This document shows, piece after piece, positions 1-33,451 of a stretch of 64,000 nucleotides of DNA. The position numbers were made by a program, and so were the translations under genes. Source of the DNA: Sycon ciliatum. Its lineage: Eukaryota; Porifera; Calcarea; Leucosolenida; Sycettidae. The stretch is taken from assembly GCF_964019385.1 (NCBI RefSeq), contig NC_088654.1, positions 16,824,018 through 16,888,017 of the forward strand, in the 5' to 3' direction. The notes under the pieces were generated by a model that did no database searches, was not told the DNA's origin, and was given only the letters and a program-made list of their open reading frames with translations. Numbering within the stretch: position 1 is the stretch's first letter; every line of letters begins with the position of its first letter.

Positions 1-1373
1 TAATTTTAGATTCAATTGCGTTGTCTAGGATGCTGAGTTTAAGATCTAACATAATAATCTCTACCTTACTTGTTTCGTATGTGAATTTGACAGGGCAATT
101 GGTTTGAATGGGTTCGTCGGTAATTTGTTTGATTCGTTCCTCAACAGTGACGGCGAAAAGGTCGTCAATGTATCTCTTTGCCAGAAGAGAGGAGGCGAAG
201 AAAGTTGTAAGGTGATACCGTTCCATTCGAAACATAAAGATATTAGCGTAAGCGACAGCTGCGGGGCTGCCCATCGCTGTACCCTGGAGTTGGTGGTAAG
301 TAGAGTCATTGAAAGTGAAGTAGTTATTCATAAGAATAATTCTCATGATTTTTATTACAGCCACTCTCCATGTACCTGGGACATCCTGCTGGCGGAGGTG
401 CCACGCAAGTGCCTGGAGGCCATGGACGTGTTTAATAGATGTATAGAGGGAAACCACATCCATAGTCATGAGTACGGAGTTATGCGTTAGGGGCAGGTTC
501 CGTGTACTTGTAAGGAGATCAGTAGAGTTGATGAGTGTGGATGGGTGTTTAAGTATTGTAGGCCAGAGGGTGAAGTGGATGAAGAGGGCCCAGTAATACG
601 TAGGTGATAGAATGGATGATACGATGGGGCGTATCTTAAGTGGATTTTTGTGAAGTTTCGGGAGTCCGTAAAAATTTGGAATACGGGTTCCGGGCGTCCG
701 GAGTTGTTTGGTAAGGCGTTTATGTAAGTCGTCCTCAATAGGGAGTAAAGCTTCTTCAAAGGCTGGTTGGGTGTCATGGATGGAAACAACGGTTTCGTAC
801 GTGTCTTTGTTTAGAAGGTGGTCTAGACAAAGGGATTTATACTTGGCCGCTGTCATGACGACAGTGGTGGAACCTTTGTCAGCTCTACATTATTATGAGA
901 TCGGAGTTACGGAGAGTATCCAGGGCTTCGAGTTCAGCTGGTGTGAGGTTCTTTTTAGTGGGTTTTGGTTTAAATTGTTGTATGGTAGTACCGATATCCA
1001 TACTAAACTCTATTAATTCGATAGGAATGGAGTTTAGAGGTGGTGTCCAGTTTGATCGGGCAAAAATTCTAGAATATTGGTTCCTGGTACTTGGCTGGCC
1101 CAAGAAGAATGCATGGACATGTAAGTTGCGCAGGAATCTGGGGACATTGTCGACCCAAGATGTGTGTGGGAGGGTGTTAGTTCTGGGAACGAATTTTAAA
1201 CCGAGACTTAAGATGTCTTTGGCAGTATCAGAGATGTCTATGTCCCCGATCATCGTTACCAGTGTTGTGTTCTTAGATTCGTTAAATATAAGTTCAGCTG
1301 CTCGTTTTTTAAGTCTTTTCCTGTTCCGGCGGCGTTTCGATTTTTTAGCCGTATTCTTGGAGTCAGTTGGTTG
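1..1373 (-). pseudogene. PLE reverse transcriptase, copy 1 (partial, one frameshift)
   Basis: This is the minus-strand copy of the RT ORF described at 3357-5146, running off the left edge. It keeps the uninterrupted frame through the conserved YGLPKLHK motif, where copy 2 is shifted, but has an extra T near 890 that breaks the frame about 140 codons into the ORF. The two copies are therefore broken at different places, which suggests each lesion arose after duplication or is a sequencing error. The thumb and C-terminal end lie outside the window. Confidence 0.8.
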
Positions 1374-2288
1374 TCACGAACGTGGCGGAGGAGGAAAATA
1401 GGTGGGCTGGCGCCTCTGTTGTGGGTATGGTGTTGGCCTAGTTACCTGTCTAGGTATGAAGTGTTGTGGTGGCAGCATAGGGCCGATGAATCGGGGCGGC
1501 CCTCGAGGTTTGTAAGGTTGGACACGAGGGGGTTGATAGTATCTAAGAGGTTGCGGCGGGCCCATTAGGTGAGGTGGTCCCCGGGCTCTCGGAGGGTTAA
1601 CAACATGCTGGGGCCGAATTATTTGTGGCTGTTGTTGGTAGGGGGTTCTTTGTTGTGTTGTATTACGTTGGCCGGTGGCATGAGTTCTAGGTGGTTTATC
1701 AAACGTAGGCTGGATTTGTACAAAGTTTTGCCTAGGTCTGGAGACATGTTGATTTTGTCTTCGAGGTGGGGCCTGTGGAGGTGGTCGGGCAATAAGGGGC
1801 TGAGTTTGTTTACCCATTTGTTGCTGGGGTTTTAGTGGTTTTGCTTTATCAGAGAGTGCTAGAATGTGTTTAGCGAGGCTCGGGCGGTGAATGAGCGGTG
1901 TATCGCTCATTTTTTCGCAGATAACGGAATCTATGGCTCTAGGTAGGTCCGTGATAGCTGTAGATAGCGTTTTACGTGCCTCCTGGAAAAGGTCCTGGTG
2001 ACGGGCAAGTTCGATTTCGAGCACTTTTAAGTTAGTGTCGGCAGCGATTTGCGCTAGTTTTTCATCTGAGGGGTCATGGCCAGTTTTACGTGGTTTGTAT
2101 CTAAGGGCATTGTGAGGGGTTTTGGAGCTATGGCGTACCTGTTCATCAAGAAGGTTGGTGCCTGCTATCTGTAGGTTGGCCTTATGGTCACGTAGTTTCT
2201 TTAGAATTGGCCAGAAGAGATTTTGGTATTTTCTCCAGACTCTCCAGACTGTGTCAGTAGGGAGGAAGGTATCTGTGTCTTGTATCAT
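1374..2288 (-). CDS. PLE ORF1, copy 1 (P/Q-rich, 304 aa)
   Basis: Same protein as the ORF at 2442-3356, differing by at least one residue (Pro versus Ser in the P-R-A-R-G stretch of the proline-rich tail). It is an intact 304-codon ORF ending at the same UGA as copy 2 and followed in frame by the RT ORF. The start ATG lies about 70 bp from the palindrome centre. No known domain is recognised; ORF1 proteins of PLEs are usually poorly conserved, so function (RNA binding or recruitment) is inference. Confidence 0.75.
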   Translation of the reverse strand: MIQDTDTFLPTDTVWRVWRKYQNLFWPILKKLRDHKANLQIAGTNLLDEQVRHSSKTPHNALRYKPRKTGHDPSDEKLAQIAADTNLKVLEIELARHQDLFQEARKTLSTAITDLPRAIDSVICEKMSDTPLIHRPSLAKHILALSDKAKPLKPQQQMGKQTQPLIARPPPQAPPRRQNQHVSRPRQNFVQIQPTFDKPPRTHATGQRNTTQQRTPYQQQPQIIRPQHVVNPPRARGPPHLMGPPQPLRYYQPPRVQPYKPRGPPRFIGPMLPPQHFIPRQVTRPTPYPQQRRQPTYFPPPPRS

Positions 2289-2441
2289 ACCAGGAGCGAT
2301 TTCAAGTGGTGGGGGCTCGTCTGGGGCTAAATCGGGCTGCTAGCATTCATACACACATGCCTCGTCACCACATGTGTGTATGAATGCTAGCAGCCCGATT
2401 TAGCCCCAGACGAGCCCCCACCACTTGAAATCGCTCCTGGT

Positions 2442-3356
2442 ATGATACAAGACACAGATACCTTCCTCCCTACTGACACAGTCTGGAGAGTCTGGAGAAA
2501 ATACCAAAATCTCTTCTGGCCAATTCTAAAGAAACTACGTGACCATAAGGCCAACCTACAGATAGCAGGCACCAACCTTCTTGATGAACAGGTACGCCAT
2601 AGCTCCAAAACCCCTCACAATGCCCTTAGATACAAACCACGTAAAACTGGCCATGACCCCTCAGATGAAAAACTAGCGCAAATCGCTGCCGACACTAACT
2701 TAAAAGTGCTCGAAATCGAACTTGCCCGTCACCAGGACCTTTTCCAGGAAGCACGTAAAACGCTATCTACAGCTATCACGGACCTACCTAGAGCCATAGA
2801 TTCCGTTATCTGCGAAAAAATGAGCGATACACCGCTCATTCACCGCCCGAGCCTCGCTAAACACATTCTAGCACTCTCTGATAAAGCAAAACCACTAAAA
2901 CCCCAGCAACAAATGGGTAAACAAACTCAGCCCCTAATTGCCCGACCACCTCCACAGGCCCCACCTCGAAGACAAAATCAACATGTCTCCAGACCTAGGC
3001 AAAACTTTGTACAAATCCAGCCTACGTTTGATAAACCACCTAGAACTCATGCCACCGGCCAACGTAATACAACACAACAAAGAACCCCCTACCAACAACA
3101 GCCACAAATAATTCGGCCCCAGCATGTTGTTAACCCTTCGAGAGCCCGGGGACCACCTCACCTAATGGGCCCGCCGCAACCTCTTAGATACTATCAACCC
3201 CCTCGTGTCCAACCTTACAAACCTCGAGGGCCGCCCCGATTCATCGGCCCTATGCTGCCACCACAACACTTCATACCTAGACAGGTAACTAGGCCAACAC
3301 CATACCCACAACAGAGGCGCCAGCCCACCTATTTTCCTCCTCCGCCACGTTCGTGA
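2442..3356 (+). CDS. PLE ORF1, copy 2 (P/Q-rich, 304 aa)
   Basis: A 304-aa ORF. Residues 1-150 are predicted helical and charged; about 150-304 are very rich in Pro, Gln and Arg and look disordered, a composition common in nucleic-acid-binding ORF1/Gag-like proteins. The stop is UGA in the context UCG-UGA-CAA. The RT ORF follows in exactly the same frame with no ATG for about 120 nt, so the RT may be made by stop-codon readthrough (inference). The start chosen is the first ATG, 70 bp from the palindrome centre. No homologous domain is recognised. Confidence 0.75.
   Translation: MIQDTDTFLPTDTVWRVWRKYQNLFWPILKKLRDHKANLQIAGTNLLDEQVRHSSKTPHNALRYKPRKTGHDPSDEKLAQIAADTNLKVLEIELARHQDLFQEARKTLSTAITDLPRAIDSVICEKMSDTPLIHRPSLAKHILALSDKAKPLKPQQQMGKQTQPLIARPPPQAPPRRQNQHVSRPRQNFVQIQPTFDKPPRTHATGQRNTTQQRTPYQQQPQIIRPQHVVNPSRARGPPHLMGPPQPLRYYQPPRVQPYKPRGPPRFIGPMLPPQHFIPRQVTRPTPYPQQRRQPTYFPPPPRS
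3354..3356 (+). promoter_or_regulatory. Candidate readthrough UGA between PLE ORF1 and RT
   Basis: UGA followed by CAACCA; the same stop occurs in both palindrome arms, whereas the frameshifts differ between arms. ORF1 and RT are in the same frame across it, and the RT side has no ATG for 120 nt but encodes a basic stretch. Gag-pol-like recoding is an inference; internal initiation is the alternative. Confidence 0.4.
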
Positions 3357-5146
3357 CAACCAACTGACTCCAAGAATACGGCTAAAAAATCGAAACGCCG
3401 CCGGAACAGGAAAAGACTTAAAAAACGAGCAGCTGAACTTATATTTAACGAATCTAAGAACACAACACTGGTAACGATGATCGGGGACATAGACATCTCT
3501 GATACTGCCAAAGACATCTTAAGTCTCGGTTTAAAATTCGTTCCCAGAACTAACACCCTCCCACACACATCTTGGGTCGACAATGTCCCCAGATTCCTGC
3601 GCAACTTACATGTCCATGCATTCTTCTTGGGCCAGCCAAGTACCAGGAACCAATATTCTAGAATTTTTGCCCGATCAAACTGGACACCACCTCTAAACTC
3701 CATTCCTATCGAATTAATAGAGTTTAGTATGGATATCGGTACTACCATACAACAATTTAAACCAAAACCCACTAAAAAGAACCTCACACCAGCTGAACTT
3801 GAAGCCCTGGATACTCTCCGTAACTCCGATCTCATAATATGTAGAGCTGACAAAGGTTCCACCACTGTCGTCATGACAACGGCCAAGTATAAATCCCTTT
3901 GTCTAGACCACCTTCTAAACAAAGACACGTACGAAACCGTTGTTTCCATCCCTGACGCCCAACCAGCCTTTGAAGAAGCTTTACTCCCTATTGAGGACGA
4001 CTTACATAAACGCCTTACCAAACAACTCCGGACGCCCGGAACCCGCGTATTCCAAATTTTTACGGACTCCCGAAACTTCACAAAAATCCACTTAAGATAC
4101 GCCCCATCGTATCATCCATTCTATCACATACGTATTACTGGGCCCTCTTCATCCACTTCACCCTCTGGCCTACAATACTTAAACACCCATCCACACTCAT
4201 CAACTCTACTGATCTCCTTACAAGTACACGGAACCTGCCCCTAACGCATAACTCCGTACTCATGACTATGGATGTGGTTTCCCTCTATACATCTATTAAA
4301 CACGTCCATGGCCTCCAGGCACTTGCGTGGCACCTCCGCCAGCAGGATGTCCCAGGTACATGGAGAGTGGCTGTAATAAAAATCATGAGAATTATTCTTA
4401 TGAATAACTACTTCACTTTCAATGACTCTACTTACCACCAACTCCAGGGTACAGCGATGGGCAGCCCCGCAGCTGTCGCTTACGCTAATATCTTTATGTT
4501 TCGAATGGAACGGTATCACCTTACAACTTTCTTCGCCTCCTCTCTTCTGGCAAAGAGATACATTGACGACCTTTTCGCCGTCACTGTTGAGGAACGAATC
4601 AAACAAATTACCGACGAACCCATTCAAACCAATTGCCCTGTCAAATTCACATACGAAACAAGTAAGGTAGAGATTATTATGTTAGATCTTAAACTCAGCA
4701 TCCTAGACAACGCAATTGAATCTAAAATTAATTTTAAACAAACTAACAAATTTCAATACATCTCCCCAAGATCTTCCCACCCCCACCATACCTGGAAGGC
4801 GGTGGCGCTTGGTGAAATGATTCGAGCAGGCAGGGGATCTACATCTGAAGCTACATCTTTAGGTACCCGTTCCTTTTTAGCTGCAAAACTAATCGAACGT
4901 GGCTACTCTAAATCTGTAGTCAGCGCTGCACTCTCCTCTAAGCACCGTAGACGACCTGCTCACACCAAAACTAACACCACACCTCCACTTATACTACCAT
5001 ACCACCCTGGCCTCACTGATCTCAACAAGGTGCTAAGATCCCTATGGACCAAGCATAAACTTGACACAATTTTAGGCCAGGCGCCGTTTATCGCGTGGAA
5101 AAAGACAAAATGTCTGGCTAGCCATCTGAAACATAAACATGTTTGA
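3357..5146 (+). pseudogene. PLE reverse transcriptase, copy 2 (one frameshift)
   Basis: PLE-type RT. From the UGA, a K/R-rich stretch (A-K-K-S-K-R-R-R...) resembling a nuclear localisation signal is followed by the N-terminal RT region with L-G-L-K-F-V-P and A-D-K-G (RT0), then YGLPKLHK, motif A (M-D-V-V-S-L-Y-T), motif B (T-A-M-G-S-P), motif C (R-Y-I-D-D) and a thumb with S-S-H-P-H-H. The frame is lost at 4044-4047, where this copy has an extra CG compared with copy 1, splitting it into 3357-4244 and 4262-5146. All catalytic Asp residues are present, so damage is recent. No GIY-YIG endonuclease follows the stop at 5144-5146. Confidence 0.88.
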
Positions 5147-10329: not shown

Positions 10330-12509
<2,180 letters not shown>

Positions 12510-18049: not shown

Positions 18050-18815
18050 ATCATCCCAGCAGCACAGCATGAGAGATTCATGTTTTTTTACTGAACGTTT
18101 TTGAACTTTTCTAAAACCTCGCAGACTCCACGATGCAAAATTTAACTCGGACACAGAGCCAATAATAGATTGTAAAATGGAAGAAAACACGTGGAAACGA
18201 TTTATGAGTACTATCCACGACTGTAACAAGATAATAATAATAAAGTGCTATAACAGGGCACAACACTGGCAAGATACTGAAACACTCAACGACCTGACAC
18301 CTAGCTCTAACACATCTCCAGTGCGCAAACCAACAGCCTTCCAATGGGGGAACTATGTTACTTAGAACGGTTAGGTAGGCCCAGTTACCGCACTTTATGA
18401 CTGCATGCGTTTTATCGTGATGCAGTCATGGACAGTTGCTTCATAACTAGTACCCATGGCACCAGCTAGGGAGAAGTACTTCAATGTGTGTCAGTGTGGT
18501 ACTTCCGTTCGAGCTGAAGTACATGTACAACAATCATGTACTGCAGTACTTGATGACAATGAAATCCGGGGTCCAGAACAGCTGGCCAAGTTGTGCGGAA
18601 CATCTTGAGTGGTCCCGTCGCTGCTCACATACATGTAGGCATGGCGCGACTTTTCCTCTCACCTTGGCTTGGTACATGATGCATGTTTGGATTTAATTAG
18701 GCTGTCATGGTACACCAATGTACATGTACACCTTATTTCAGGTGATACAAGCTATTGTTTTAATCAGTGAAATTGGTCAGAAAATGTTGAGTCACCTCCA
18801 CCATTGCACTGCACT
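18050..18815. other. No gene recognised
   Basis: Only short ORFs. Several TACATGTA palindromes at 18525-18725. Confidence 0.4.
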
Positions 18816-18884
18816 CTTTAGCCGACTAGACCTTCCTGCACACAACCATCACCACTGCGAGGACACTTTCGTAGACGATAATTC

Positions 18885-18915
18885 CTTCATACAGCTGTTT
18901 CGTTAATGCATAGCT
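18885..18915 (-). pseudogene. Broken hammerhead copy in unit 1
   Basis: Keeps GAAA, the ACAGCTGT stem III and the TGAAGG arm, but the CTGATGA core is reduced to CTGA, the cleavage C is A, and the other stem I arm is deleted. Confidence 0.75.
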
Positions 18916-19104
18916 CAGGCAGCGGGTGCATAGTGGGATTTCAAATACACGAAAACGCTACTTCAAAGTACTAATTAGCTCAAAGTAATTGTTTTAAGTG
19001 AATTTCCTGGGAAACCCTTGAAGAACGCCGACTTAGCCGACTAGACCTTCCTGCACAAAACCATCATCACTCCGAGGACACTTCCGTAGACGATACTGAT
19101 AATT

Positions 19105-19154
19105 CCTTCAGACAGCTGTTTCGCTAATGCATGTACATAGCTCATCAGTGAAGG
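19105..19154 (-). ncRNA. Hammerhead ribozyme, type I, minimal stem III
   Basis: On the minus strand, in order: stem I CCTTCA (19154-19149), CTGATGA (19148-19142), stem II GCTA (19141-19138), loop of 11 nt, GCTA complement TAGC (19126-19123), GAAA (19122-19119), stem III palindrome ACAGCTGT (19119-19112), cleavage-site C (19111), stem I TGAAGG (19110-19105). Every invariant core base is present and stem I is a perfect 6 bp. Stem III of 4 bp without a loop suggests cleavage as a dimer, as known for animal retrozymes. Confidence 0.85.
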
Positions 19155-19399
19155 TAGAGATTTTGAATGATTAGATATAGACCACACTGCTATTATTATA
19201 GGGCTTTTCACATACACAACTGGCATACATGTAGCTGATGTGATACCGCGGGAAAAGGAAAATATTGGTCAGAGCCTGCATACTGGCAGCAGGTGCATGT
19301 GGGATCGCAAATACACGAAAACACTTCTTCTAAGTAGTAATCAGTTCAAAGTAGTTATCGAGTGCATTTCCTGGGAAACCCTTGAAGAACGTTTTGTCT

Positions 19400-22568: not shown

Positions 22569-25391
22569 CTACTTCCTGGACAGGAAATTAGCACAGCTAT
22601 GCAGGTCGAAACCACGGGATGACTTGCAGCAGCGACCGCAGCCGAGACAATGCGCTCTGCAGCAGGGCAGGGCAACCCGCTGTTTCCGGACCGAGTCTGC
22701 CGATGCCACAGCCGAGACCGACGCCACTTCAGCAGCCGAGTTGGAGAGACACTTATGCGAAGCTAGCCCGCCAGCACTCAAGAACCATCTCCCGCACGCA
22801 TTACATAGTCGGCTGCCGGACTGCTCAGATATGGGCTTCCTCCTCTCGGCCAGGCACTTGTGGCGATTCTTGTATTTCTGGTTGGCGAAAGTACGCTGGC
22901 AAACATCGCAGAGCACAGAAGTGTCACGCTGAGCCGATCGCGGTACTGGTTGAGCGGAATACGCACTGCGCCATTTCCCACGCTCCTGGGCGAGGTCGTA
23001 CCATTCCGTGTGGTCGATGTTCACTGCGGAGAGGTCAGCTCTGACAGAGTCTCGCCACCGTTTCCGAGGACCGCAAGCCGGCCTCGGCGGAAGGAGCGCA
23101 CCAAACAGGAGCTGGCGCGGAGTTCTATCGCCGTCCATCCTAGCTAGATGGCCTAGCCACTCCAGACGGCGGCGAAGAACACGTGTGGTAATATCCACTG
23201 GATCTCGACGATTCCAGGCCTCCAGAATGGTCTTCCTGTTGATGTGGAAGTCCCAGGTGTCTCTTCTACCGAGGGCTAAGATTGCGGAAATGCAGCGAAG
23301 ATGGAAGGCGGACAGCTCCGCAAGCTCGCTTTTCAGTGGTACCCAACACTCCGCTCCGTAAAGGAGAAGAGAAGCCACACATGCATCATACACCATTCGC
23401 TTCGTTGCCAGTGAAAGATCGCCATCATCAAAGACAGATCGACCCAATGCTCCGAATGCCCTAGATGCTGACGCTATTCGGGACCGAGTGTCCACTGCGG
23501 TGCGGCCACCAGTATGGATGATGGAGCCTAGGTAGCGAAAGTCATGCACATTCTCGACAATTTCCCCGCCAACCACCAATGGACGACGATCCTCCGGAGA
23601 AATGCCGAAGCCGACCGCCATTACTTTGGTTTTTGATAGGTTGATGGTGAGGCCGAAGCGAGTTGCGACGTCCATGAACCGGCTGAGCGCAAGTGTGGCA
23701 CCATGGTGAGTTGTAGCAATAAGTGCCGAATCGTCTGCGAATTGACAGTCACGATGGATGTTGATTGTGTCAGTCTTCTGGCGTTTGAAAAGGAGAGACG
23801 GTCCAGAGTTAGAGGAGACGGGAAGTCCAATCTCAGGTATGTCCGCAACCTCACGCTGCCACAGCTGGAATACTGCCCACATGAATATATTGAACAATAC
23901 TGGGGCCATACAACAACCTTGTCGAAGGCCATTTTGCACCTCAATAGGCTCGGCCTCGATGCCCGGGATCGACAGGTTTGCAGACATAGAGGTATGAAAT
24001 GAGCTGATAATGGTAACCAGCTTGTCAGGTACGCCCGCCTTCCGGAGAATTTCCCACATGCACTTACGGGTGACGGAATCATAGGCCTTCCGTAGATCAA
24101 CAAAAACCATGAAACCAGAGCAGCGATGTTCATATAGTTTCTCAGATATTTGTCTCACCGCGAAGATCATGTCCGCACAAGATCTGCCTTTGCGGAATCC
24201 ACACTGCGTGTCTGGCAGGATGTCTTCCGCGAGCCGCTGCAATCTTGTCTGGACGAGGCCAGCAACAGCTTTTCCTACCACCTCCAGAAGAGCGATGCCC
24301 CTCCAATTGTCACAGCTGGATAGATTTCCTTTTTTTGGTATCGGGACAAGCTGGCAGTCCACCCACTCCTGGGGCACCCGCTCTGCATTCCACACTGTCT
24401 GGACAAGGTCCAGTAGTGCCATCATGAGGCCATCCCCACCAGCCTTCAGCAGTTCCGGTAAGATTCCAGAGCCTCCTGCTGCTTTTCCGTTCCGTAGTCG
24501 GCGCACAGCTTGCCTAAGCTCTTCCAGAGTAGGTGGATCGGCGAGGTCTTCACACACTTCTTGTTGCTCAATGGTGGCAACAGTTGCAGGTTCATACGAG
24601 GTTGGAACATTGTAAACCTTGGAGAAGTGGCGGTGCCATGTGCGGCCCTGATCCGCCGGTGAATTACAGACATTTCCGTTCTCGTCCCGCACAGCGACTG
24701 CAGTTACACCCACAAGCCCTCGCCGAGCCGTCTGCATGGTCTTGATACCGGCCCAAATGCGCGCCGAGTCAAAGCGCCCCTTCTCAGTACGTTGTGCCAT
24801 GGCAGCAAACCAATCATTCTTCGCAGCTCGGGTGGCAGCGCGAGCCCTCGTGCGCGCAACACGGTAGCGCGAATACTCTTCCTGATTCCGGCCACTAGTG
24901 ATCCATGTTCGATAGCATGCATTGCGCGCGTCCAGCAGTGGCCGCAGCCCGTCCTGGCTTTCCGTAAACCAATCAGGCTGCTGTCTCCTCTGATGACCGA
25001 GAGTGTCCGCAGCCGCCGCCGTCACCACGTCCCGCATCGCATTCCATTTCTCGTCGACCGTTTCCGCGCCCGCCACTGCATCAATCTTGGCATTGATGTT
25101 TTCCTGGTAGTCGTCAACCTTCCTCCGGTGGTTTCCCTCAGCATCTGTCGAAACCACTGCGGGCAGATTATGCACTGCAAATCGTACTCTCTTTGTAGAT
25201 TTCCGCGGTTTCCACAAGACCCTGCCGAGCCTAAACCTGGCGGCAACAAGACTATGGTCGCTCCCACATTCTGCCGAGCGAATAACCTGAGCATCAGTGC
25301 ACCAGTGCCGGCTCCCTTGCGCTGTGATGATGAAGTCAATACAATGGACATGTTTAGTTCTGGGATGCTGCCAAGTGCCTATTGTAATAGG
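22569..25391 (-). pseudogene. RTE-like LINE, endonuclease C-term, RT and Zn fingers
   Basis: Open frame of about 940 codons on the minus strand. It starts inside the AP-endonuclease domain (T-W-Q-H-P-R-T-K..C-I-D-F-I, then S-D-H-S-L) and runs through a complete RT: F-V-D-L-R-K-A-Y-D (motif A), L-R-Q-G-C-C-M-A-P (motif B), Q-F-A-D-D-S-A (motif C), and the RTE-type W-L-G-H-L-A-R-M segment. The C-terminus has C2H2-type fingers (C-D-V-C-Q-R-T-F..H, C-N-A-C-G-R-W-F..H). The upstream half of the endonuclease is at 26096-26875, separated by a 0.7-kb LTR-element insertion, so the LINE is inactive although this part has no stop. RTE clade is judged from motifs only. Confidence 0.85.
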
Positions 25392-26095
25392 TGTATGTAT
25401 GCTACGACCTGAATACTCACTATTTGTATTTCCCGCTCGTTCCCCTTGGCAATGAGCACTCACATAGAAGAGCGCATGCTCCAGTTCTGTTCTAGTCTAG
25501 TCTTGAGTTGTCGTTGTCCTGTTCTCCTTCTGTCTACACTCTTATCGAATACTTCTATAAATTATCCAATCATATAAAACCCCTGTGTTCCGGTGTGAGG
25601 GGGCATCATTAGCCGGGAGCAGCTAACACTGGTGGCAGCGGAAAACGTCCACCACTACATCGCTGGCGGAGTATGTACGCCTTCGGAGATCGCCGACTAT
25701 GAAGTACCACGAAGGCCCACGCAAGTGAAACCATATCCTCATCCACTCTCTCCGTCAATATTTTCCTTTCTGCATTGTGTTTCTTTCTGCTCGTCGTTTT
25801 CTTGTTGCATGCATTGTTTACCATGGTTTACAGTCCATAGGTCAAGCATTGGCGCCAACCTGTCTGGCCAAACATTTTCGGAACATTTTCTGTGTCCGTG
25901 TTTTGTGCATACTGGCTGCTGTCTAGTGTCTTGTTAGGATATCTGCTAGCTGGGTAGTAGAGTCTAGCTACACTGTGTCCGTAGAGTAGTTGCCTATTTG
26001 GAATTGTCTCTGCCAAATTTAGTTGTTTGCCGCTACGCACGATAGGTTACGTAATAGATTTTAGATCGATGCGTCGCGTCGATCGAGTCCTGCTT
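25392..26095 (+). mobile_element. Partial LTR retrotransposon: 5' LTR, PBS and leader
   Basis: A TG..CA LTR of about 237 bp (25392-25628) with ATATAAAACC at 25576 is followed by a primer-binding site TGGTGGCAGCGG (25630-25641), complementary to the CCA end of a tRNA-Leu. About 450 bp of leader follow, without Gag or a second LTR. The insertion splits the endonuclease ORF of the RTE-like LINE. Borders are approximate and no TSD was resolved. Confidence 0.65.
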
Positions 26096-29360: not shown

Positions 29361-32324
29361 TCACTTCGGATGAGACAGTGTGGAAAGCTGGACTTTGAAT
29401 TTCCTGATATCCTGGCATGTCTTAATGCTAGTAGGCAGGTTAGACCAAAGGGAGTATGCTGAGAAGAAAGGGGATTTCAAAAACAGAGAGGAACTAGCTC
29501 GGGGCAGTGATAAGGCATTGCGTGTTGGTCTAGTGGTAACAAACCAGTTGTACTTGGCAATATGTTTCGGGACTTGGGCTAGGAAGATTTTTTGCACAAG
29601 GATACAAAGATGCTGCTGATGTCGGGCAAGAAGAGGGTGCGTGGAAGCAAGTTTATAAAGACAAAGGGAGGCAAATGTTTGGTCTTTTCGAAACAGAATT
29701 TTCAGAAGCAAGCGTTGATGTACTTCCAGTCTGTGGAGTAAAGTCTGAGACAACCCGCACCAAGCTATATCGCAATAGTCAAATATAGGCAAAATGTACG
29801 ACTTAAAGAACAATTTTCTGCAGTTATCATTCATGTGTTGGCAGTGGGGTTGTAGCATACCTAAGGACGCACTCGCACGCTTGCACACAGACTGGACTTG
29901 TGGAGACCAGGAGAGTTGGCGGTCGAGAATAACGCCCAGGTGCTTGTGCTCGTTAACAACTTTAATAGGTGTACTATTTAGACCAGGAAAATACAGAAGC
30001 TGAGTGGGGGGCGAGGGAGAGAAGAACATGGCCTCGGTTTTGGCGAGGTTAGGCTTCAGTTTCCAGGTTTCCATCCATGTTACTGTAGCGTTGACCCCGG
30101 ACTGCATGGAGGCCGTGAGGTTGTCTGCCGAGCTGTCGGAGCACAACAGAGCAGTGTCGTCAGCAAAAAGACTTACATTTGGTACAAGGGCTGGCAAGTC
30201 ATTAACGTACAGTAGAAATAGGAGCGGCCCAAGTATGGACCCCTGGGGTACCCCAGACACGACTAGTAATGGGTCTGACAGGGAGGTAGATACTCTGACA
30301 GTCTGGTGGCGGCAGGAAAGATAGGATGAGAGCCATTGCAGGGCTGGACCATGTACCAAGAAGACGGACTCTAGCTTTGCAAGCAGACCACGATGCCAGA
30401 CGGTGTCGAAAGCTTTCGCTAGGTCAAAGAACACGATGCCAACATGCCGCCTGAGGTTCCGCTGGGTGTAGATGTCTTGTACTAGACGTGTTAGTTGGAA
30501 AGTTGTGGAGTCTCCACGGCAGAAACCGGATTGAGATGGTGAAAGCGCTGGGGTGACGTGGCAGTACAGAGACTCAAAGAAAATACGTTCACAGACCTTT
30601 GACACAGCGGGGAGGAGAGAGATTGGTCTGTAGTTGCCAGCCTGAGAGCGTTGGCCTTTCTTATAGATCGGGACGATAACAGCAGATTTCCAGACGGACG
30701 GAAATACTCCTGTACGATATGACATGTTAAAGAGCAGGCACAAGGGATAGGACAGAGATGGCGCAAGCCATTTGAGAACCTCATTGGGTATGCCATCTTC
30801 GCCAGGGGACTTACAATTCTTCAGGAGTTTGAGGTGCTTACAGACGGTAGCAGTCGTGGTAACGACGCGTGTGAGTGGTGCGCTAAGTTCAGGGGCTGGG
30901 GACAGCGATGGAATGTCCCAATTCGGATCCTCCGGAATGCCGGATGAAACAAACTGCTTGTTCAGTGTGTCTGCAATCGCCTTCACATCGTGCTGGCGGT
31001 TGCCATTGGAGTCCGTCAGGTACTGGATTGGCGCGCGGGAGGTCCCGCGGCACTGGTTGCGAATGAATTGGTGGAGTGATGGGCGATCGGGGGAGGAGAG
31101 TGTTGCAGAAAGAGAGTTTAGAAAGGAGCGGTGTGAGGTACGAGAAAGGTGCTTGACAAAGTTGCGTTGAACTCGGTAAGCCTCCCGGTTAACCGGCGTT
31201 GGGAATTTCTTGTAGATGCTGAAAAGATCACGCTTGCGCTTCACTTCAGATACGAGGGACCGTGTCACCCATGGGGGACTAGATGTCGAGGATGTTGGGT
31301 TGGAATGTTTCCGGTTGTTGTAGCCGATAGCAAAGTTAGAGAGGTGCTGTTGGAACCCTCGTTCAAGGACGGCTGCAAAGTGATCTACCGCGGCGTCAAC
31401 AGTTGGAGAGCCTTCTGGTTGCAGAAACGACCAGTCGTGGCAGGAGAAATCAGCGTTCATAGAGTCCCAGCACTGAGAGGGAACTCGACGGAAGCGATAT
31501 GGGAACGGTTTGCGAGAAGGAAGTGGCAGGTCTGGGTCCGAGGGCAATGAGACGGCGAACTGGCATGAAACCATGAGATGGTCCGAGGAGCCAAGAGCGC
31601 AAGCTGTGTGAACGTCCGTCGCCAGCAGGGGTTGGTTTGTGAAGACAAGGTCTAGACATGACTGTGTTCCGGAAGATGTTGTGTGCGTTGGACTCTGCAC
31701 CAGCTGATCCAAACCGAAGCAGGTAAGGGTGCGAAAAAGTGCCGCCCCAGCAGGACACGTTAAATCCGATGGGCACCACCGTTTGTGCTTACTGTTGAAG
31801 TCCCCAGCCATTATGACATGGTACGATGACATGGGAACGGTTACCAAAGCACTAGCTAGCATATCACAGAAGTGGTCTATTTCCGTGGTTTTGACTGAGG
31901 GCGGACGGTAGGTACAGCAGACGAGGATGGGTGTCGGGGAGCCTAAGATTGGGTGAAGCTCAACCCATACGGATTCACAGGTCGGATGAGCAAGGTCGTC
32001 GCGAACTTGGACTCTTCCGAAGCGATTTTGCCGGACAAGAATCGCAACTCCACCATATCCTCTGGTTGCCGTACCGGATTTGTTATCATGAGGTGGTCGG
32101 TCGCGACGAAATGTGGTATAACCGGAGATGGTGAGCGCTATGCTTGGATTTAGCCATGTTTCATTTAGACAGATGACATCAGGTTTGTTGAAATCAGCAA
32201 TGACAGACAGTTCGGCAGATTTGTTAACGATTGAGCGGCAATTTACGGAAAGCAAGGTCAGTTTACCCTGGCAAGGGGGGAAGTAGGGCCGAGCCAGTGG
32301 ATTCAGCTGTGGTCGCGCCATCAT
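29361..32324 (-). CDS. LINE ORF2: AP endonuclease and reverse transcriptase
   Basis: 987 residues, uninterrupted. Endonuclease about 20-240: L-S-V-N-C-R-S-I, L-N-E-T-W, Y-R-P-P, A-G-D-F-N, and S-S-D-H-L. RT about 480-760: N-Y-R-P-I-S-L-L, F-F-D-L-A-K-A-F-D (motif A), G-V-P-Q-G-S-I-L-G-P (motif B), L-F-A-D-D-T-A-L (motif C), then the C-terminal N-E-H-K-H-L-G-V region and helical tail. All catalytic residues are present. Its ATG overlaps the ORF1 stop as ATGA (32321-32324), so translation by termination-reinitiation is likely. It nicks target DNA and primes reverse transcription there. Clade within the CR1/L2/Jockey group is not fixed. Confidence 0.92.
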   Translation of the reverse strand: MMARPQLNPLARPYFPPCQGKLTLLSVNCRSIVNKSAELSVIADFNKPDVICLNETWLNPSIALTISGYTTFRRDRPPHDNKSGTATRGYGGVAILVRQNRFGRVQVRDDLAHPTCESVWVELHPILGSPTPILVCCTYRPPSVKTTEIDHFCDMLASALVTVPMSSYHVIMAGDFNSKHKRWCPSDLTCPAGAALFRTLTCFGLDQLVQSPTHTTSSGTQSCLDLVFTNQPLLATDVHTACALGSSDHLMVSCQFAVSLPSDPDLPLPSRKPFPYRFRRVPSQCWDSMNADFSCHDWSFLQPEGSPTVDAAVDHFAAVLERGFQQHLSNFAIGYNNRKHSNPTSSTSSPPWVTRSLVSEVKRKRDLFSIYKKFPTPVNREAYRVQRNFVKHLSRTSHRSFLNSLSATLSSPDRPSLHQFIRNQCRGTSRAPIQYLTDSNGNRQHDVKAIADTLNKQFVSSGIPEDPNWDIPSLSPAPELSAPLTRVVTTTATVCKHLKLLKNCKSPGEDGIPNEVLKWLAPSLSYPLCLLFNMSYRTGVFPSVWKSAVIVPIYKKGQRSQAGNYRPISLLPAVSKVCERIFFESLYCHVTPALSPSQSGFCRGDSTTFQLTRLVQDIYTQRNLRRHVGIVFFDLAKAFDTVWHRGLLAKLESVFLVHGPALQWLSSYLSCRHQTVRVSTSLSDPLLVVSGVPQGSILGPLLFLLYVNDLPALVPNVSLFADDTALLCSDSSADNLTASMQSGVNATVTWMETWKLKPNLAKTEAMFFSPSPPTQLLYFPGLNSTPIKVVNEHKHLGVILDRQLSWSPQVQSVCKRASASLGMLQPHCQHMNDNCRKLFFKSYILPIFDYCDIAWCGLSQTLLHRLEVHQRLLLKILFRKDQTFASLCLYKLASTHPLLARHQQHLCILVQKIFLAQVPKHIAKYNWFVTTRPTRNALSLPRASSSLFLKSPFFSAYSLWSNLPTSIKTCQDIRKFKVQLSTLSHPK

Positions 32325-33451
32325 GCTGAGCCTGAGGAGAGGACGTTGTTTGCCTGGTTGGCATTGCTGGTGTCAAAACTGTCCGCGGCAAAACGCCAGG
32401 GCCTAACCGTGTGCGAAAGAGCATCCGGCCAGAACCCTTTGTCACCGACTGTGTTCTCATCAGCTGCCTCGACGGTCACCCGTGCGTAGGCAGTTCTGAA
32501 GTGCTTGGATGCAAATATGACACCTTCCTGAATCTGCACTCCTCGGGCAGAGCACCATTCAGCAATTGATGATGCGGAGCAGTGTGGCTGCACGTTGCCA
32601 ACGTAAAACACTTTGCGTTTGGCCCGGGGTGATGCCGTGAGGTCTACTGCCGGCTCGCTATCACGAGCCGGCTTGGTGTAGCGGGATGTTTCCACCCGCC
32701 TTGTTATGCTTTGAGCTAGCTGGGACTGACTACTAGTATCTGCCGCGTGCCTTTGTCTCTGGGCGGCTTGAGTGCGTCTGCCCTGGTGTTCCTGCCATTC
32801 ATGTACTTGTTGTTCAGTATCGGTGGACCTACGGGATGCATCCAGGCCTGCTGCGGGGCTGGAGCTACGACTTGTAGTAGTGCTGGACCTACGGGATGCA
32901 TGCACGCCTGCTGCGGGGCTGGAACTACGACTTGTAGTAGTGTTGGGTTGTTGCACACGCGTTTCTCCTGGCAGGCTGCCACTGCCGGCGTGTGTACCGT
33001 ACGTTTGTACAGACCTGCCCGTTGTGGTGCTGAGCCTCGCACGTGCACTTGCAGTTTGTGTGGCGGTTCCTAGTACTACGTCGCTGTACTGGTGTGGCAT
33101 GGCGTGCTGTGTGTGTACGCTAGTATCTCGCAGGTCAGCCATTTCCCGCCTCAGCTGTTGAATTTCAAGCTTCAAGGAAGCAATTTCATCATCTCTTCCC
33201 ACCCTAATTGCCACTATTTCTTTATTCAGGTCCATTATTGTCGAGGACAATGCGGCCAAAGCAGTCGTGACATGTCCTATACCGGTCATACCTTCCAGGA
33301 TGGGGTGGGACCCAATCCCCTCCTTCCGGAGCGCTCCCACCAGGTCGGGCCGTGAGAAGGAGTCCGCTTTCGGGATGCCAGTCCGGGTGGCCAGGTTTTG
33401 TAGACAGTCGAACGTCAGAAGGGCCAGGTCGACATGCTCATTGGTGGCCAT
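32321..33451 (-). CDS. LINE ORF1: coiled coil plus RRM-like domain
   Basis: 376 residues. About 60-110 is a heptad-like helix (L-N-K-E-I-V..L-K-L-E-I-Q-Q-L-R-R-E-M), a likely trimerising coiled coil. About 165-215 has two tandem copies of a 20-residue T-T-T-S-R-S-S-S-P-A-A-G unit, visible in DNA as a 60-bp duplication at 32820-32940. About 270-350 (K-V-F-Y-V-G-N-V..A-Y-A-R-V-T-V) looks like an RRM fold. The layout matches RNA-chaperone ORF1 proteins of LINEs, which form the RNP. The stop overlaps the ORF2 start. Confidence 0.8.
   Translation of the reverse strand: MATNEHVDLALLTFDCLQNLATRTGIPKADSFSRPDLVGALRKEGIGSHPILEGMTGIGHVTTALAALSSTIMDLNKEIVAIRVGRDDEIASLKLEIQQLRREMADLRDTSVHTQHAMPHQYSDVVLGTATQTASARARLSTTTGRSVQTYGTHAGSGSLPGETRVQQPNTTTSRSSSPAAGVHASRRSSTTTSRSSSPAAGLDASRRSTDTEQQVHEWQEHQGRRTQAAQRQRHAADTSSQSQLAQSITRRVETSRYTKPARDSEPAVDLTASPRAKRKVFYVGNVQPHCSASSIAEWCSARGVQIQEGVIFASKHFRTAYARVTVEAADENTVGDKGFWPDALSHTVRPWRFAADSFDTSNANQANNVLSSGSA

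Follow-up and report, generated by a model that had tools for sequence, protein, structure and literature searches.

A two-unit hammerhead repeat of Sycon ciliatum as a probable relic of a dispersed noncoding element with a proposed link to Penelope-like machinery

Introduction

Two similar units of DNA stand side by side in the 64,000-nucleotide stretch of Sycon ciliatum DNA that was analysed here (the window), and one of them carries a hammerhead ribozyme motif. Which kind of element left them there? The initial annotation took the pair for a retrozyme-like tandem repeat of a 358-bp unit. Our analysis leads to a different answer, that the feature is probably the relic of a dispersed noncoding hammerhead-bearing retroelement, which would be mobilised in trans by the reverse transcriptase/endonuclease of Penelope-like elements (PLEs). 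The window copy itself is damaged and matters only as an entry point to this family. The features of the locus, in window coordinates, are the following:

18772-18781, no strand: left copy of the putative 10-bp target duplication, ATTGGTCAGA, a word with two occurrences in the window, one at each edge of the family match
18782-18817, minus strand: 3' end of the element in its short-tail form, placed by BLAST against the 788-bp reference at about element position 748
18818-19032, minus strand: repeat unit 1, 215 bp, element part plus duplicated neighbouring DNA (repeat search and alignment)
18884-18919, minus strand: what is left of the unit 1 hammerhead, which lacks the 5' strand of stem I and some of the core (sequence)
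19028-19032, no strand: CCGAC between the units, also contained in the following AGCCGAC (sequence and alignment)
19033-19263, minus strand: element part of repeat unit 2, 5'-truncated, element positions 495-712 by BLAST
19105-19154, minus strand: hammerhead ribozyme motif of type I, with cleavage predicted between 19111 and 19110
19264-19273, no strand: right copy of the putative target duplication, ATTGGTCAGA, at the edge of the family match
19274-19391, no strand: neighbouring DNA apparently copied along in the tandem duplication, with its counterpart in unit 1 at about 18918-19027

The hammerhead motif of the window

The minus strand from 19154 to 19105 contains CUGAUGA, GAAA and GUC, and its stems I and II have 6 and 4 bp, as had been annotated. 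A type I descriptor (stem I of at least 4 bp, stem II of at least 3 bp) matched the 64-kb window only here, and gave 0 matches in 60 dinucleotide shuffles of the window. The hammerhead motif at this locus is real. However, to call it a textbook hammerhead, as the initial annotation did, is too strong, since no covariance-model score passed the threshold: with 71 bases around the motif as query, Rfam Hammerhead_1 (RF00163) reached 25.6 bits, against a gathering threshold of 34 bits. The whole 64-kb window contained no Rfam family at gathering score, and the best result of an 801-base search around the motif was a shifted Hammerhead_3 (17.4 bits, E 1.1).

Stem III had been described as a palindromic 4-bp helix, but in a single molecule it consists of one C-G pair beside the core A-U, closed by a loop that is the self-complementary AGCU. 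In this sense it resembles the axolotl Amex1 ribozyme, which is described as having a single stem III pair with a palindromic tetraloop, and cleavage that is poor alone and better as a dimer (PMC7229834). The native hammerhead fold was calculated at -5.5 kcal/mol, and the predicted minimum, a different fold, at -12.7 kcal/mol. The fold z-score of the motif against shuffles was only -1.54. With regard to the loop 1-loop 2 tertiary contacts of canonical type I ribozymes, stem I was not seen to extend to an internal loop in a constrained fold of the flanks.

Insertion and local duplication in the window

The two-unit repeat exists as annotated. Unit 1 (18818-19032) measures 215 bp and unit 2 (19033-19391) 359 bp; the two are identical at 182 of 207 aligned bases and differ in length by a net 144 bp. 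Tandem Repeats Finder did not report the pair. In the initial annotation the first unit has a 138-bp deletion that took half of the ribozyme; here the loss is put at about 140 bp.

The larger unit is not one element. About 231 bp of unit 2 belong to the element, and the remainder was found only at the window locus. We searched the assembly (538 Mb, 313 contigs) with 19034-19391, as the initial annotation had proposed; dispersed copies were indeed recovered, but among the best 40 of 598 candidates all matches outside the locus lay within query positions 1-230, ending by 19263, and the end of the query was confined to this locus. The edge of the family match in unit 2 falls at 19261-19263. A search with 19262-19391, in which very common words were skipped, returned two matches, the sequence itself and the sister unit (2/2 candidates scored). 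On the other side, BLAST against the 788-bp reference placed unit 1 at element positions 606-751, and the family match also covers bases to the left of this unit. Beyond the annotated start at 18819, the element extends left to 18782, and the target duplication begins at 18772. The short-tail end of the window copy coincides with the 3' end of another genomic copy, L016.

The word ATTGGTCAGA occurs at 18772-18781 and 19264-19273 and nowhere else in the window. It is the best word shared by the element edges; 10 bp was reached by 1 of 500 random pairs, and in a further control 9 of 5000 random 28-mer pairs shared a word as long. As the unit contains locus-only DNA, and the dispersed element in it is truncated and accompanied by a 10-bp target duplication, insertion would have come first and local tandem duplication second. 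A copy lacking the 5' part of the element, and spanning its positions 495 to about 748, would have landed with the 10-bp duplication; the element and its neighbouring DNA would later have been duplicated in tandem, CCGAC at 19028-19032 being a probable filler at the junction; and the left unit would then have lost about 140 bp, including half of its ribozyme and the right copy of the target duplication.

A dispersed 788-bp family

The extracted loci L009-L012 are 96.2-99.4% alike over several kb; in this class, referred to as the L009 class, a 788-bp insert lies between two copies of ATAGAAGTCAT. Two further copies, L053 and L016, begin within one base of its 5' end (best 40 of 205 candidates). 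The longest stop-to-stop frame of the complete element has 96 aa, and by its sequence the element is noncoding. The ribozyme occupies element positions 596-639 with a predicted cut after 633, about 115 and about 155 nt before the two alternative 3' ends. GC content is 0.437 and 0.426 in the window units and 0.493 in the 828 bp around the complete element. A pol III promoter was considered and rejected: loose patterns gave no B-box in the element and an A-box at two places.

One exact form of the family ribozyme core occurs 196 times genome-wide, against 0 for the reversed control. Among the 100 of these 196 cores that were listed, six neighbour pairs lie within 2.5 kb, five of them head to head and one in the same orientation at 2104 bp, and no same-orientation pair is closer. 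A type I hammerhead in a multi-copy family, as the initial annotation supposed, is borne out by 196 exact cores of one form and by the best 40 of 598 and 40 of 776 candidates scored. The annotation had taken the lack of both other genomic copies and a covariance-model match above threshold as telling against its reading; other copies exist, while such a match was not obtained. An exact 22-mer of the unit had 0 matches in viral and genome contig collections, and a hammerhead pattern had 0 matches in the viral contig collection.

We examined the structure of 11 independent insertions, namely those with both outer ends inside the extracted DNA (in L051, L052, L053, L057, L058 and L059 an end lies outside it), counting L009-L012 as one insertion and L014 with L015 as one. 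The 12 extracted stretches were picked from the matches of two genome searches so as to include varied and paired copies, and are no random sample. Putative target duplications of 10-13 bp flank 5 of the 11 insertions (L009 class, L013, L049, L050 and the window); in L012 an extra weak match hid the duplication in the edge count, yet ATAGAAGTCAT is present twice. The remaining six (L014/L015, L016, L054, L055, L056, L060) share no word of at least 8 bp at their edges. Among the 11 insertions, L013, L014/L015, L016, L049 and L050 have a head-to-head arrangement, and all five combine one long outer end (778-788) with one short end (747-752), about 30-40 nt apart. Family structures are not uniform, since L016 holds an extra internal piece, the inverted part of L014 is only 33 nt, and in L054 a 40-nt same-strand ribozyme fragment abuts the element copy. 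A DNA transposon with terminal inverted repeats was considered and rejected: the 31-33-bp inverted ends of L014/L015 derive from the 3' end of the element itself, a short stretch of which stands there in inverted orientation, and at the 5' end of several other copies such a piece is lacking.

Conservation of the family ribozyme

In an alignment of 20 copies from 16 loci, minority letters account for 10 of the 880 ribozyme cells and for 180 of the 5691 flank cells; as alignment cells are not independent, the Fisher value of 3e-4 should be taken as a guide only. The ribozyme window shows the sixth lowest variation of 304 windows, the lowest starting one base further on. Hence the ribozyme is among the least variable stretches of the element. 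As read from the alignment, core bases and pairable stems are kept in 17 of the 20 copies, the exceptions being L050_183, L051 and the first copy of L013. These counts leave out L012 and L057, which belong to the L009 class, and L015, a segmental duplicate of L014; of these, L012 has GAAG for GAAA, L057 has a stem II mismatch and L015 is intact. The family ribozymes of five loci failed to reach E 0.5 in cmscan, and the family ribozyme was found in 0 of 30 loci extracted from a genome-wide RF00163 search.

Penelope-like and other elements in the window and the genome

PLE reverse transcriptases abound in this genome, with at least 112 matches (109 of 1919 candidates scored). The window itself contains, at 2-2339 (minus) and 2391-5146 (plus), a head-to-head inverted pair of a reverse transcriptase element, which we take to be Penelope-like from its PLE signature; Pfam RVT_1 scored 21.8 bits, below the cut-off of 29.6. 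A pseudo-LTR of this PLE (1-5146) was rejected as the source of the feature, as it has no similarity to the element. Five further PLE stretches likewise showed no similarity to the element, and neither the descriptor nor Rfam found a hammerhead in them; a PLE partner with a matching tail or hammerhead was not found among the five stretches and the window PLE.

Relatives of the window PLE form tandem rows near contig ends, for example in 3819-bp steps at C2:201-20384 and C13:9537-29708, on C173 and at the end of C1, and may be telomeric PLEs. At C1:78527000-78530100 (L061) there is a 902-aa Penelope frame, one of five matches at 2935-bp steps, whose end resembles a GIY-YIG endonuclease in its motif.

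Elsewhere in the window, a 1720-bp (TGT)n run at 10598-12317 is open in all six frames. Two frames of 975 and 1003 aa with reverse-transcriptase domains lie on the minus strand at 22569-25496 and 29361-32372, the latter also with an endonuclease/exonuclease domain; from these predicted domains, both are LINE-type elements.

Retrozyme arrays of a different sequence

A genome-wide RF00163 search (E up to 10) gave at least 74 matches scored of 76236 candidates, four of them over the cut-off; of 14 control genomes, 11 gave weak matches and 0 a match over the cut-off. Contig C189 holds two arrays (L039, L040), each with 13 ribozymes that mostly follow one another in 226-bp steps, and shorter runs of the same family are found in L018, L019, L020 and L035. 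The hammerhead of this 226-bp retrozyme family is of type I (CTGACGAGTCC..GGACGAAACAGTTCTGTC). One exact core of it occurs 1093 times genome-wide (reversed control 0), and among the 100 of 1093 places listed many are 226 bp apart in the same orientation. Retrozyme-type arrays of a sequence other than the window element thus exist in this genome.

The family also has single copies, of which we took 18 loci out of 30, leaving out arrays and near-identical loci. Several of them (L017, L022, L026, L030, L031, L032, L041) end at GATTGAG shortly behind the ribozyme, an end that is absent in 4 of the 18 loci. A word of 8-13 bases following the GATTGAG end is repeated upstream in 7 of 14 single loci (6 if L022 and L041 are one insertion), and it is possible that these words are target duplications.

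A third hammerhead type (..CUGAUGAGUCCAGCGGGGACGAAACGUACGUC..) scored 35.4 bits, above the Rfam cut-off, in L014 and L030. In L014 it forms a head-to-head pair at 3385-3428 (minus) and 3573-3616 (plus).

Discussion

A possible route of mobilisation

How would a 788-bp noncoding element spread? Since the longest frame of the complete copy has 96 aa, it is at most a non-autonomous relative of PLEs. We suggest that a PLE enzyme would take the 3' module of the element, ribozyme plus tail, in trans. Both target strands would be nicked about 10-13 bp apart, and either strand would prime cDNA, which would begin at one or the other of two sites lying 30-40 nt from each other. These cDNAs would reach the 5' end or stop early, often meeting head to head. 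We infer alike the choice of enzyme, the order of events and the role of the ribozyme.

Similar features are published for PLEs. In Penelope elements of Adineta vaga, pseudo-LTRs (pLTRs) occur in inverted orientation, for the most part head to head, and one of the inverted copies may carry a 31-bp tail; several cases show target duplications of 8-10 bp, and integration in trans by pLTR sequences is also described (PMC3846280). The PAc protein (Poseidon PAc) cuts and extends both DNA strands; its reverse transcription has two adjacent start sites, and the 30-40-bp tail is the piece between them (PMC11167929). Counted along the ORF, the hammerhead of that system cuts at +26 and reverse transcription starts mainly at +111-118; the PAc protein helps the ribozyme to cut (PMC11167929). 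For the element described here, the ribozyme probably serves in protein-assisted or dimeric cutting of the element RNA.

Alternative explanations

The feature might be a pseudo-LTR or a deletion remnant of one autonomous hammerhead-bearing PLE, and not a member of an independent noncoding family. We consider this unlikely. It would account for the likeness to published pLTRs, which carry hammerheads and an optional tail (PMC11167929, PMC3846280), it agrees with the abundance of PLE reverse transcriptases, and in the L009 class a PLE-like reverse transcriptase fragment does lie on the strand opposite to the element, some 2 kb away. However, complete copies share a fixed 5' end with no reverse transcriptase on the ribozyme strand, and the five PLE stretches show no similarity to them. 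A diverged PLE parent may be hidden, because scoring covered no more than the best 40 candidates out of 205, 598 and 776.

It is quite improbable that the ribozyme is an inactive resemblance within an ordinary repeat. The score below the Rfam gathering threshold, the fold z-score and a native fold that is not the predicted minimum would fit such a view, but it is difficult to reconcile with the descriptor result in the shuffles, with 196 exact cores against none in the reversed control, and with the intact core and stems of most aligned copies in one of the least variable windows.

Finally, the pair could be the genomic dimer of an animal retrozyme, whose 358-bp unit self-cleaved, circularised and was reverse transcribed into tandem copies, the first being damaged later; this original reading is very unlikely and does not hold, for although the hammerhead is of type I with a helix III of the weak amphibian kind, the unit of 359 bp and 43-44% GC lies within the published 150-450 bp and less than 50% GC (PMC7229834), and elsewhere in the genome L054 repeats a small part of the element on the same strand, the portion 19262-19391 is found only in the window pair, a copy of the target duplication lies inside unit 2 and a single truncated copy is enclosed by one duplication, the ends of complete copies are fixed, with the ribozyme inside, and are not permuted and ribozyme-bounded, no same-orientation exact cores lie within 2104 bp of each other among those listed, and the retrozyme arrays of this genome look quite different.

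Significance

Hammerheads in Penelope elements and animal retrozymes are already published. In the excerpts of the literature on non-autonomous Penelope-like hammerhead elements we met no description of a noncoding hammerhead-bearing Penelope family. As a tentative interpretation, the genome may carry a SINE-like satellite of PLEs, a noncoding RNA of 788 nt in which the hammerhead and the two-start tail behind it, its best-preserved part, could be the minimal handle for template uptake by PLEs. In this sense, one Penelope machinery may move both the element and the 226-bp retrozymes, since single 226-bp copies mostly end shortly behind the ribozyme and some have 8-13-bp target duplications. 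If true, such a shared machinery would constitute the missing link between retrozymes and Penelope elements. Mobilisation of animal hammerhead-bearing retrozymes by PLEs has been put forward as a proposal, not demonstrated (PMC7229834), and an element with a Penelope insertion signature, beside retrozyme arrays and long Penelope frames, makes that proposal testable. It will be interesting to analyze which parts of the RNA are needed by the enzyme, and whether it is cutting or binding of the enzyme that keeps the ribozyme in place.

Comparison with known systems

With Schistosoma W-elements, as described in PMC8490949, the element has in common that both are noncoding hammerhead repeats with signs of mobility; W-elements, unlike the element, are satellite-like tandem repeats, and the two are likened by description, not by sequence.

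Closer is the relation to animal non-LTR retrozymes, which according to PMC7229834 are also noncoding and multi-copy, and whose type I hammerhead has a weak helix III and a palindromic loop. A GC content below 50% is likewise found in the window units and in the 828 bp around the complete element. Nevertheless, element copies are dispersed, often head to head and with fixed ends, and are not head-to-tail multimers with one ribozyme per unit; the window unit, half of it locus-only DNA, is no ribozyme-bounded monomer of 150-450 bp in a head-to-tail row.

The hammerhead-bearing PLEs (PMC11167929, PMC3846280) resemble the element in that a type I hammerhead precedes two 3' ends lying 30-40 nt from each other, that inverted insertions pair a long end with a short one, and that copies stand head to head or are truncated at the 5' end. 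They also have short target duplications, which were seen here in 5 of 11 insertions, the other six having none of at least 8 bp. The element differs from them in having only 788 bp and no frame for a reverse transcriptase or GIY-YIG endonuclease, and in that, save for the 40-nt fragment of L054, no tandem or partial-tandem pseudo-LTRs were seen in the extracted copies.
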